The position numbers and the translations under genes are program-made. Positions 12,819-41,603 of a stretch of DNA of 64,000 nt are shown piece by piece. The stretch's first letter is position 1. Each line of letters starts with the position of its first letter. Location: contig QCLE01000004.1 of the NCBI GenBank assembly GCA_003214815.1, forward strand, positions 1 to 64,000, given 5' to 3'. The stretch comes from Prochlorococcus sp. AG-412-J13 (GTDB lineage: Bacteria; Cyanobacteriota; Cyanobacteriia; PCC-6307; Cyanobiaceae). The notes beneath the pieces were generated by a model, which had not been told where the DNA came from, did no database searches, and saw only the letters and a program-made list of their open reading frames with translations.

Positions 12819-13202
12819 TTAAGACATTTTCGATTTTAGTAAATCAACTCTTTTTTGATTCACTCCCAAATCACTTTCTCCAACTCTTGATTCTGATCTT
12901 ATTGATAAGATCTTTGATTCAGGTAAAAAGGATACCTCTAAGTCGTCTACATAATTCATCCATTTACTGGTTGCCTCAGCATGAAGATAATCGCCATCAA
13001 TTTCTACAATCTCAGTTCTTGGAGTGTTTTCGATAAATTTTTTAATCTCTTCAAAAGGTTTCTCAATATTGTTAACCTTCCATTCTTCTCTTACACAATG
13101 AGCAATCTCTACACAAGGTTTTAGTTCTACATGTGAGGCAAATGATGAAGAAGGGAATAAAAAGCTTGAACAAATTAAAATTGCTAAAAAAAGTATTTTC
13201 AT
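12819..13202 (-). CDS. secreted DUF1499 protein
   Basis: The protein has 127 residues with a signal peptide (MKILFLAILICSSFLFPSSS, cleavage near SFAS). The domain CVEIAHCVREEWKV, TPRTEIVEIDGDYLHAEATS, SFLPESKILSIRSESRVGES and GVNQKRV is the DUF1499 pattern. The reaction is unknown. It is probably periplasmic or in the thylakoid lumen. On the minus strand it lies downstream of the two small-RNA candidates at 13.3-13.6 kb. Confidence 0.8.
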   Translation of the reverse strand: MKILFLAILICSSFLFPSSSFASHVELKPCVEIAHCVREEWKVNNIEKPFEEIKKFIENTPRTEIVEIDGDYLHAEATSKWMNYVDDLEVSFLPESKILSIRSESRVGESDLGVNQKRVDLLKSKMS

Positions 13203-13333
13203 TTATTGAAGAATTTAATAATATATAATCTTACGAATCAAATTTCTAATTAGTAATAATCGTTTTCCTATTTTTGAAGAAAGCATTTGTTTCTTTAAAT
13301 CCAGTCTTTAAATAGGTATTTCTAATAATTTAC

Positions 13334-13436
13334 AAAAAAAAAGATCTCTTAAAGGGAGATCTTTTAAAATTGATTTAAATCAAGTGTTTCCTTGTTTCCA
13401 CTGAAATAAATCAATTCCTCCTACACACAACTTTAA
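13334..13436 (-). ncRNA. Yfr2-family-like small RNA
   Basis: On the minus strand, starting near 13436, the sequence contains GTGTGTAGGAGG (13417-13428). A 10-bp outer stem (AATTGATTTA with TAAATCAATT) encloses AGTG-GAAACAAGGAAA-CACT (13383-13402). A strong intrinsic terminator and T tract follow. The doubled GGAAACA loop and the overall order match what is known of the cyanobacterial Yfr2 family. The 5' end is estimated, not determined. The 5' part is complementary, apart from one bulged base, to the Yfr1 core motif. Confidence 0.65.
13339..13365 (-). terminator. intrinsic terminator of the Yfr2-like RNA
   Basis: The 10-bp stem AAAAGATCTC / GAGATCTTTT encloses a 7-nt loop. On the minus strand it is followed by a run of T (plus strand A run 13334-13342). 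Confidence 0.8.
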
Positions 13437-13504
13437 TATCACACCTAAATTCAACATATGTAATGCCTAATAGACCTCTATCTTAACTGTCACATCGCAA
13501 AAAA

Positions 13505-13585
13505 TAGAAAAAGTACTTAAACATTTTGGTCAAGTACTTTTAAAGTTATCAGAAAAAAGTGTGTGAGGAGTTTCTGATGTATTTA
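13505..13585 (-). ncRNA. second Yfr1-type small RNA candidate
   Basis: On the minus strand a perfect 8-bp stem (ATCAGAAA with TTTCTGAT, 13571-13578 and 13548-13555) presents the loop CTCCTCACACACTTT. This includes the exact Yfr1 core ACTCCTCACACAC (complement of 13559-13571). A terminator hairpin with a T-rich tail follows (13509-13541). In canonical Yfr1 (41465-41519) the same 13 bases lie unpaired between two hairpins; here they sit in a hairpin loop. No ORF overlaps. Ends are estimates. The RNA has not been named to my knowledge. Confidence 0.6.
13509..13541 (-). terminator. terminator hairpin of the Yfr1-type RNA
   Basis: The stem AAAAGTACTT / AAGTACTTTT has 10 bp around a 13-nt loop. 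On the minus strand it continues into a T-rich tract (TTTTTCTATTTTTT). It could also act, less well, on the plus strand. Confidence 0.65.
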
Positions 13586-13693
13586 ATCTAATCCGTAGGT
13601 AATTTAAAAGGCTACAGTATAAATTACTAATTATTTAAATCTTTCAGGAAATTGGCCGTTGATGAAAAAAATTTTCATCAACATAAAAAATTC

Positions 13694-14544: not shown

Positions 14545-15330
14545 TTATTTGCGAAGCTTAGGAATCAAAAGAGATGCAACACAAATAACACTAATTGCAG
14601 GCCCAGGCGAAAGATTAAATAATATAGAGAGAATAAATCCCAGAAGTGAGATGCATAATCCAAAAAATGAAGATCTCATCATCGCAATTCTTAAACTATG
14701 AGCCTTATTTAGCCCTAACAAAGTTGGCGTAGAAAGAAGAGCAATTACAAGAATTACTCCCACTGCTGACATTGAACTAACAATTACTAATGCCGTCGTA
14801 AAACTCAAAGCAAGATTTAATAAAGAAACGTTTATACCACTTGCGGATGCACCTTCTGGATCTAATCCAACATAAACAACCTTTTCATATCCAAAAGTCA
14901 TTAAAATCATAAATACTAAAAATGCAATTATTGTTCTAAGTAAATCCTCAAAATTTGCTGTCAATAAATCTCCAAATAATACTGCCTCCAAATCAATCCT
15001 TATTCCTAGTAAAGGAATAATAAGGACTCCAAAACCAAGCATTCCAGCAAGAATAGTATTCATAACTGCTTCATAATTTTCACTCTTTTTATTAGTTAAA
15101 CTTTCCGCAATTACAGAGCCTAAAAGACCACTAATAACCCCACCAATTGAAGGATGAATTCCAAGCGCTAAGGCTAAAGCAAGTCCTGGCAAAACGCAGT
15201 GAGAAATTAAATTTACTTGAAGTAATCTCCTATGTGTTATTAATACAGCTCCCATCGCTGGACATAGAATTCCTGAAAAAATAGTTATTATTAAAGGAAC
15301 AAGCCACCAACTGCTATTAATAAAAGACAT
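14545..15330 (-). CDS. znuB: zinc/manganese ABC transporter permease
   Basis: The 261-residue integral membrane protein has about seven to eight helices and belongs to the ABC-3 family. MGAVLITHRRLLQVNLISHCVLPGLALALALG is the typical N-terminal pattern, and VGLDPEGASASGINV is the conserved cytoplasmic loop. It forms the pore of the importer with ZnuC and receives metal from ZnuA. It starts 17 bases from the divergent zur gene. The ATPase gene lies on the same strand but on the far side of zur. Confidence 0.9.
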   Translation of the reverse strand: MSFINSSWWLVPLIITIFSGILCPAMGAVLITHRRLLQVNLISHCVLPGLALALALGIHPSIGGVISGLLGSVIAESLTNKKSENYEAVMNTILAGMLGFGVLIIPLLGIRIDLEAVLFGDLLTANFEDLLRTIIAFLVFMILMTFGYEKVVYVGLDPEGASASGINVSLLNLALSFTTALVIVSSMSAVGVILVIALLSTPTLLGLNKAHSLRIAMMRSSFFGLCISLLGFILSILFNLSPGPAISVICVASLLIPKLRK

Positions 15331-15347
15331 TAATCTAAAGATTAGGT

Positions 15348-15782
15348 ATGATCAAAAATACGGGACAAAAAAAGATTTCGGAAACAATGCTAACTAAGTC
15401 TGACATTACCAAAAGACAAGAGCAACTTCTTGAAGAACTTAATAAATGCGAGGATGAATTGAGTGGTCAAGAATTGCATAGACAATTGATAGAAAGCGGA
15501 AAGTCTATGGGACTGACGACTGTTTACAGGAATCTTCAAGTTCTGATAAAGCATGGCTTAATACGTTCTAGACATCTCCCAACAGGAGAGGTTCTGTACA
15601 CTCCCTTAGATAGAGATATTCATCATTTGACCTGTGTTCAATGTGGTGAGACATCAAAAATGGAAGGATGCCCGGTAAAAGATATTCATACACCCAATAC
15701 AAATCCAAAGAAATTCCAATTGTTGTTTCATACCCTCGAATATTTCGGGCTTTGCCAAAACTGTTATCAAGCTCAGAATTAA
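15348..15782 (+). CDS. zur: Fur-family zinc uptake regulator
   Basis: The 144-residue protein has an N-terminal winged helix (about 15-85; recognition region GLTTVYRNLQVLIKHGLI). The C-terminal dimerisation domain has two CxxC pairs (C96/C99 and C136/C139) for structural zinc and sensory histidines (HH92-93, H128). Its position within znu genes favours Zur over Fur or PerR. Its target is probably the palindrome upstream of znuA. It is divergent from znuB by 17 bases and convergent with znuC (12 bases between stops). Confidence 0.88.
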   Translation: MIKNTGQKKISETMLTKSDITKRQEQLLEELNKCEDELSGQELHRQLIESGKSMGLTTVYRNLQVLIKHGLIRSRHLPTGEVLYTPLDRDIHHLTCVQCGETSKMEGCPVKDIHTPNTNPKKFQLLFHTLEYFGLCQNCYQAQN

Positions 15783-15794
15783 AAAGGAACATTT

Positions 15795-16565
15795 TCAAAC
15801 AAAGAAATTATTTTCCTTTATAGAGCTAATGTTTATTGCCTCTAATTTATCTTTTATTAGATCAGGACTACCAACTGCCAAAACACTTTTATCAAGAACT
15901 ATTACTTGATCATAGTTATTTAAAGACTCGCCCCAATCATGGCTACTTACGAGCAAAGAAAGTCCCGCATCCGCAAGTTGCCGAACAATTTTCAGAAAAT
16001 CCTCCTTTGCAGGGGGGTCCAATGCTGCACAAGGTTCATCTAAAAGAAATATTCTTGCCGGGGACATAAGAGTTTTTGCTAATAGAGCTCTTTGCTGCTG
16101 TCCACCTGAAAGAGAATCGAGTCTTCTATTAGCCAAATTTGCAATGCCTACTCTTTGCATTGTCGCCTCTAATTCACAACATTTATTAATCCAAGAATTA
16201 GGATACGCTAGAAGAGTCTTAATTTGAAAGGGGTTATTACTTCTTGATTTTGAATACTTTATTTGACCAAGAGATACCAATTTTTCAACTGTAATGGGAA
16301 ACTTCCAATTCATAGAACTTCTTTGAGGCATAAGTGCCACTAGAGCTCTAGATCTATATAAATTTTCACCGTCAATTTTTATTTCGCCTTTATCTGGAGT
16401 ATTTTGTCCTTGCAATATTCTCAGAAGAGTTGATTTACCAGCGCCGTTTGGGCCAACTAACGCTGTTAGAGTTCCAGGTTTAATCTCAACCGATACCTTA
16501 TTTAAAACTGGCTTACTTTTTTTTGTGTATGCAAAGGTTAAATTTTCAGCGACTAAAGTAGCCAT
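15795..16565 (-). CDS. znuC: zinc ABC transporter ATP-binding protein
   Basis: The 256-residue ABC ATPase has Walker A GPNGAGKST (38-46), signature LSGGQ (152-156), Walker B IFLLDEP (172-178) and a switch histidine (SSHD). MPQRSSMNWKFPITV is the Q-loop region typical of metal-type ABC proteins. It powers ZnuB-mediated uptake. To reach znuB, a znuC transcript must cross zur in antisense. It is divergent from znuA, with the Zur box between them. Confidence 0.9.
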   Translation of the reverse strand: MATLVAENLTFAYTKKSKPVLNKVSVEIKPGTLTALVGPNGAGKSTLLRILQGQNTPDKGEIKIDGENLYRSRALVALMPQRSSMNWKFPITVEKLVSLGQIKYSKSRSNNPFQIKTLLAYPNSWINKCCELEATMQRVGIANLANRRLDSLSGGQQQRALLAKTLMSPARIFLLDEPCAALDPPAKEDFLKIVRQLADAGLSLLVSSHDWGESLNNYDQVIVLDKSVLAVGSPDLIKDKLEAINISSIKENNFFV

Positions 16566-41464: not shown

Positions 41465-41519
41465 AAAAAAGCCCGATTAATCGGGCGATTTAGTGTGTGA
41501 GGAGTATGGGGTTTCCCCC
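41465..41519 (-). ncRNA. yfr1: Yfr1 small regulatory RNA
   Basis: The minus strand reads GGGGGAAACCCCATACTCCT and then CACACACTAAATCG, followed by the terminator GCCCGATTAATCGGGC and a T tract. This is the classic Yfr1 layout: a short GGGG/CCCC hairpin, the unpaired ACTCCTCACACAC core (complement of 41493-41505) and a terminator hairpin. The position between guaB and trxA is the known Yfr1 location in Prochlorococcus. Yfr1 pairs with outer-membrane (porin-type) mRNAs in this lineage. The 5' end is estimated. Confidence 0.95.
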
Positions 41520-41603
41520 ATTATTTCATAATAACTCCTAATTAGAAAAATTTTCAATTTAATACTTAATTCACTAAAGTTTTATAATTTTGCTCTAAAA
41601 AGA

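Follow-up and report, generated by a model that had tools for sequence, protein, structure and literature searches.

A hairpin-borne second copy of the Yfr1 motif in Prochlorococcus corresponds to the published small RNA Yfr18 of the Yfr10 family and lies beside its predicted Yfr2-family partner Yfr5

Which RNA carries the core motif of the small RNA Yfr1 a second time in the genome of Prochlorococcus sp. AG-412-J13, and how might it act? Two exact copies of the 13-base core ACTCCTCACACAC were found in the window, i.e., the whole stretch of 64,000 nucleotides analyzed here (contig QCLE01000004.1), at 13559-13571 and 41493-41505 on the minus strand, and a search of the assembly (1,828,325 bases, 97.4% complete) returned no other exact copy, in agreement with the recurrence described by a first-pass annotation of the sequence. 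The copy at 41493-41505 lies within Yfr1, as proposed there, and the Yfr1 model RF01116 matches the window only around this copy (41468-41521). The RNA at 13559-13571 has the identical 13-mer at a different locus and displays it in the loop of a hairpin, whereas the Yfr1 motif is unpaired and flanked by a hairpin on either side.

In the predicted fold of this second RNA, 13571-13578 pairs with 13548-13555 in a perfect 8-bp stem around a 15-nt loop, and because the first A of the motif closes the stem, 12 of the 13 motif bases lie in the loop. A terminator-type hairpin follows, as had been noticed at first reading, and the folding energy of -16.3 kcal/mol (z -4.44) was equalled by 0 of 200 shuffles. 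No ORF of ≥30 aa in the window's ORF list overlaps 13505-13585, which bears out the initial description of the spacer as ORF-free, and this is the sole exact motif copy of the assembly that is borne by a hairpin. The stem is a recurrent property of motif contexts: stems of ≥8 bp were found in 174 of 184 distinct contexts vs 96 of 3680 shuffled controls (19 further contexts were dropped because they lie antisense to a Cyano-1 RNA), in a set that is biased in that part of it comes from a motif search and part from the Yfr10 model, of which the stem is a component; contexts anchored on Cyano-1 required neither motif nor Yfr10 model. Between genera, the stem varies in a compensatory way, with both sides changed and pairing kept (ATCAGAAA/TTTCTGAT, AACAGAAC/GTTCTGTT, ATTAGGAC/GTCCTAAT, and TTAAGAGGAC/GTTCTCTTAA).

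Four Rfam matches exceeded their cut-off in the window, namely Yfr10, Cyano-1, Yfr1, and a tRNA, while matches to rli31, HIV_GSL3, and NsiR4 fell under the cut-off and were taken as chance. The Yfr10 match (RF02362) at 13497-13578 spans model positions 1-78 of 78. Consistent with this family, the window RNA carries ACUCCUCACAC in a hairpin loop followed by a terminator hairpin in the predicted fold, and is located upstream of a Yfr2 homolog on the same strand (RF01701, 13363-13430). It thus resembles the Yfr10 of strain MED4 in its loop-presented motif, its terminator, and the Yfr2-family RNA downstream, but it occupies another locus and has another terminator sequence, and the gap between motif and anti-motif, 148 nt at MED4 Yfr10 and 148-154 nt across Yfr10-type loci in which both were found, is 124-133 nt at loci of the window type.

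This second locus is known from MED4. Through the same motif, a small RNA named Yfr18 was discovered there and then verified by both Northern blotting and 5'RACE; its place is the interval from Yfr5 to the next ORF, PMED4_11681, and it is listed at complement 972284..972388 with sizes of 29 and 76 nt, the 5' end of Yfr5 was described as able to pair with it with a C bulged, and homologs were tabulated in five further strains (Steglich 2008, PMC2518516, including its Table 1). We identified MED4 among the searched genomes (G152) because its Yfr10 match at 346661-346738 equals the coordinates in the same table; the MED4 motif falls at 972302-972314 (positions derived by calculation), within the published Yfr18, whose ends differ from the Rfam-like boundaries. 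As in MED4, the window RNA lies between Yfr5 and the next ORF, a small one on the opposite strand, with order and strands alike, and its predicted hairpin-plus-terminator fold is also the same. In both genomes, OsmC and DUF1499 genes flank the locus on one side, and the other side has small ORFs followed by genes for ABC-3, Fur-family, and ABC ATPase proteins; the loci differ in that MED4 has, between Yfr5 and the DUF1499 gene, a 96-aa ORF that is absent from window positions 13203-13362, and the measured transcript ends are those of MED4 alone. The best 40 named Prochlorococcus matches to 6.5 kb around the locus displayed 89.6 to 94.0% identity. Because the Rfam match, the position of the MED4 motif inside the published Yfr18, and the flanking genes agree, we assign the window RNA to Yfr18 and its neighbor to Yfr5. 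The RNA at 13497-13578 is therefore already known: RNA, motif, loop presentation, and partner are all in print. The name Yfr18 was found only in PMC2518516 within the literature searched. The first-pass annotation correctly recognized a further carrier of the Yfr1 motif with a different fold, but had presented as new what is published as Yfr18 (Steglich 2008; RF02362).

Table 1 Features of the Yfr18-Yfr5 locus and related loci in the same genome.
Feature	Position	Strand	Basis or remark
Yfr18 sRNA, Yfr10 family (RF02362)	13497..13578	-	58.8 bits, gathering 43; Rfam-match boundaries
13-base Yfr1/Yfr10 core ACTCCTCACACAC	13559..13571	-	exact match; identical in 24/24 orthologs
Motif-presenting 8-bp hairpin ATCAGAAA/TTTCTGAT, 15-nt loop	13548..13578	-	predicted fold
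Terminator-type hairpin of Yfr18, 3' end T-rich	13509..13541	-	predicted fold
Candidate -10 box TATACT of Yfr18 (putative)	13616..13621	-	ATAC invariant in 24-row alignment
TGTGACA-TT element between Yfr18 and Yfr5	13485..13494	-	TGTGACA and following TT invariant in 24-row alignment
Yfr2-family sRNA (Cyano-1, RF01701), Yfr5 ortholog by synteny	13363..13430	-	80.6 bits, gathering 41; loop GTGGAAACAAGGAAACAC
Anti-motif GTGTGTAGGAG, single-stranded 5' part of Yfr5	13418..13428	-	same letters in 24/24 orthologs
Terminator hairpin of Yfr5	13339..13365	-	predicted fold
DUF1499 gene, neighbor common to the MED4 Yfr18-Yfr5 locus	12819..13202	-	Pfam on window protein; MED4 protein by eye
ABC-3 permease, Fur-family regulator, ABC ATPase genes; MED4 order identical	14545..16565		Pfam on window proteins; MED4 by eye
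Yfr1, identical 13-mer in open single strand between two hairpins	41468..41521	-	RF01116, 58.0 bits; fold
Second Yfr10-Yfr2 tandem of the genome (L001, L004, L054)	C7:70399-70632		

The neighboring Yfr2-family RNA had been overlooked in the first reading. Besides its RF01701 match, it has the GGAAACA-type loop and a 5' anti-motif, GTGTGTAGGAG, that pairs with the 13-base motif with one C bulged; members of the Yfr2/Cyano-1 family are complementary-motif partners, i.e., antagonists and not motif carriers. The invariant TGTGACA-TT between the two RNAs may serve the Yfr5 promoter as an activator site, and by eye it was also noted at comparable places ahead of several further genes of the Yfr2 family. 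A GntR-type regulator has reportedly been linked to yfr2 promoters, and TGTGACA-TT may be the site of that regulator; a motif CGRE1 is also published. The assignment of TATACT as the -10 box of Yfr18 is tentative because the published 5' end of MED4 Yfr18 would fall upstream of the element.

Published work on MED4 provides the functional frame for these RNAs. The motif is single-stranded in Yfr1 and forms a loop on a stem in Yfr10, both RNAs pull down with Yfr2, and, in E. coli, repression of PMM1121 by Yfr1 is relieved by Yfr2 (Lambrecht 2019, PMC6778093). The same paper describes distinct Yfr1 and Yfr10 targetomes, with two thirds of the Yfr10 mRNA targets not shared with Yfr1, a Yfr10 level that responds to light and darkness, and, in HL strains, Yfr10 homologs located upstream of Yfr2 homologs; the baits in its available text were Yfr10, Yfr1, and Yfr2, and neither Yfr18 nor Yfr5.

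In the window strain, predicted pairing with Yfr5 was stronger for Yfr1 than for Yfr18. The Yfr1-Yfr5 duplex (-16.6 kcal/mol) lies below all 100 Yfr1 shuffles (lowest -14.8), and the Yfr18-Yfr5 duplex (-10.6 kcal/mol) lies within the range of shuffled Yfr18 (mean -8.7, sd 2.2, lowest -13.6, n=100). The latter value is not outstanding because a nested-structure model, in which loop-to-strand pairing is not possible, must open the hairpin to free the loop-borne seed. Replacement of the motif core as in the published M1/M2 mutants changed the prediction to -3.4/-2.6 kcal/mol for Yfr18-Yfr5 and to -10.0/-8.5 kcal/mol for Yfr1-Yfr5, and thus abolishes most of the predicted Yfr18-Yfr5 pairing. Gap-free complements of the motif with ≤2 mismatches occurred at 15 places in the strain's own genome vs 16 for the reversed control, and we claim no targets from them; of the 15, 5 coincide with motif-like sites read on the opposite strand, and this search is blind to Yfr2-family anti-motifs because its pattern allows no gap.

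Taken together, sequence, predicted fold, conservation, synteny, and tandem arrangement lead us to read the locus as the Prochlorococcus Yfr18-Yfr5 pair, with a trans-acting Yfr18 titrated by Yfr2-family RNAs (about 90% probable). Yfr18 would then be a Yfr10-family RNA that holds the CU-rich Yfr1 seed in its hairpin loop and ends at an intrinsic terminator. Its partners would be G-rich complementary sites, both in mRNAs and in the Yfr2-family 5' end GUGUGUAGGAG; the Yfr2-family member Yfr5 starts ~130 nt further downstream, in the same orientation. RNAs of the Yfr2 family would titrate Yfr1, Yfr10, and Yfr18 off their mRNAs, and binding of Yfr1 or Yfr10 would block the cleavage of Yfr2 by RNase E. 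For MED4, expression of Yfr18 (PMC2518516) and pairing, titration, and targets of Yfr1, Yfr2, and Yfr10 (PMC6778093) are in print; we infer that Yfr18 and Yfr5 of the window strain act likewise. Among the roles initially offered for the RNA, "paralogous regulator" fits best, whereas "decoy" better suits the RNA at 13363-13430, because Yfr2 binds Yfr1 and Yfr10 and relieves repression by Yfr1 (PMC6778093).

Conservation was evaluated in two samples. Across 300 genomes of the family, RF02362 matched 41 at E ≤0.001, 27 of them over the cut-off; the 24 genomes of the window genus in this sample are all among those matched. All 24 carry a Yfr18-type locus with the same motif-to-anti-motif tandem and with motif and anti-motif unchanged, and conservation at the syntenic position, which the first-pass annotation had named as a test of its proposal, therefore holds in every sampled congener. 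The second sample comprised 140 Cyano-1-anchored loci, i.e., 139 of the 150 matches listed (from 121 genomes of the genus, 103 with a match) plus L081; the 11 listed matches left out all score ≥74.4 bits. Among the matches listed, loci of the short-spacer class, to which Yfr18 belongs, retain the exact 13-mer in 59/68, the 11-mer in 64/68, and the anti-motif GTGTGTAGGAG in 68/68 cases, the class being defined by spacer and detectable hairpin and not by neighbor genes; because a detectable hairpin is needed, fully lost copies are counted among the 17 of 140 loci that are hairpin-less. An RNA verified in MED4 is thus confirmed in another strain and in 24/24 sampled congeners.

These observations bear on three other explanations. 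A 13-base repeat arising by chance beside an unrelated terminator is extremely improbable, as the first reading of the sequence had argued: base composition predicts 0.0005 exact copies per window and 0.013 per genome, matches with ≤2 mismatches number three in the window vs a shuffle mean of 0.32, and three were reached in 0 of 100 shuffles. With an Rfam match over its cut-off, a motif identical in 24/24 orthologs, and a verified MED4 transcript, we rejected this explanation, for which no favorable point was found. Another possibility is that Yfr18 regulates no mRNAs itself and is a decoy that absorbs Yfr2-family RNAs, which would otherwise occupy Yfr1. It does carry Yfr1's motif, its gene adjoins a Yfr2-family RNA, and the 11-mer is kept at nearly all short-spacer loci among the matches listed; however, the mRNA targets of Yfr10, which belongs to the same family and folds alike, are mostly not shared with Yfr1 (PMC6778093), and a pairing with Yfr5 that is predicted to be weaker than that of Yfr1 would suit a decoy poorly, so that we consider this role improbable.

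Alternatively, Yfr18 could mainly be the cis partner of Yfr5: read-through at its terminator would yield one RNA with the motif folded on the anti-motif, and the two would be made inactive and in equal numbers until processing releases both. Tandem and spacing are conserved, a 270-nt Yfr10 + Yfr2 precursor is listed for MED4 (PMC2518516, Table 1), and, in the folding model, motif and anti-motif of the read-through RNA pair with each other in 22 of 24 orthologs (exceptions L065 and L066), with blocking of the anti-motif costing 9 to 16 kcal/mol (mean 12.3). Yet a folding program is expected to pair any complementary stretches placed on one RNA, whatever their function; Yfr18 has its own terminator, the conserved element between the two RNAs suggests a promoter for Yfr5 itself, no Yfr18-Yfr5 precursor is reported in the available text of PMC2518516, and pairing of Yfr10 in trans is published (PMC6778093). 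We therefore regard a mainly cis-acting Yfr18 as rather unlikely, and hold it equally unlikely that Yfr18 and Yfr5 are partly made as one read-through RNA, a balanced silent pair released by processing in which seed and anti-seed would co-evolve as a unit. A tandem of seed and anti-seed offers a natural system for studying how a small RNA and its antagonist remain matched.

Decay of the motif was observed in the same genome. A second Yfr10 copy (C7:70555-70632) scores 64.9 bits, above the copy in the window, but its motif is changed to AATCCTCACACAC (AATCC...) and its predicted fold no longer contains the motif hairpin (z -1.15, with 28/200 shuffles as good). Six one-mismatch motif sites were found in the genome, C7:70613 being the motif of this second copy; as candidates for a third carrier, L008, L010, and L011 were rejected for want of a Yfr10-kind hairpin (L007 and L012 were outside this check). 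Among the matches listed, long-spacer (Yfr10-type) loci keep the 11-mer intact in 16/20 cases beside GTGTGTAGGAG and 10/28 beside GTGTGAAGGAG (Fisher 0.003, a statistic that ignores relatedness), based on 48 of the 140 loci; the remainder are the 68 short-spacer and 17 hairpin-less loci and 7 with other or unread anti-motifs. Retention of the 11-mer according to the neighbor's anti-motif type is a lead only, and the sign of seed/anti-seed co-evolution from duplex energy is weak (-16.07 kcal/mol for own pairs vs -15.77 when permuted, with 161/5000 permutations as low and relatedness again ignored).

Beyond the window genus, 13 RF02362 matches were fetched from genus g56, which we take to be the low-light I group, and 11 of these show motif, GAGGAG-type anti-motif, and Cyano-1 loop in tandem; the exceptions are L099, with a degenerate partner, and L100, in which the motif is absent. 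The tandem in this second genus may represent a small extension of the statement made for HL strains in PMC6778093. Together with the predicted cis pairing in the read-through RNA and the changed, hairpin-less second Yfr10 copy, it is what the computational analysis adds to the published record. The Yfr1 model RF01116 finds a match in 248 of the 300 genomes of the family; among the 197 with a completeness of ≥90%, 181 have one. In all 10 genomes searched out of the 16 complete ones without a Yfr1 match, ACTCCTCACAYR was detected (18 places), compared to 6 places in 5 of the same 10 genomes for its reversed control. Six genomes of g11, g39, and g14 have at least one copy between GGAC/GTCC-like arms with a strong terminator stem after it, which agrees with the Yfr10 published for SS120; this hairpin is short and unproven because 105-nt folds form the enclosing stem only in L367 and L368. 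The ACTCCTCACAYR contexts of g9 and g25 are unlike SS120 Yfr10.

Motif and anti-motif at tandem distance were found in at least 116 stretches of named genomes, and 80 of these, with 81 matches, were examined: a GGAAACA loop lies ≤60 nt downstream in 81/81. The tandem was found in 0 stretches of viral contigs, and the phage search returned 4 records with short, weak matches (E 0.09 to 0.3), 0 of them cyanophages. In L086, from a genome of another genus (G001), the sequence after a motif hairpin resembles, on visual reading, an oppositely oriented Yfr2-type RNA; if this reading holds, the pair would be convergent. Finally, the Prochlorococcus HNLC1 assembly carries two motif/anti-motif tandems within ~1 kb (L152:592-1607), possibly a duplication of the whole pair.
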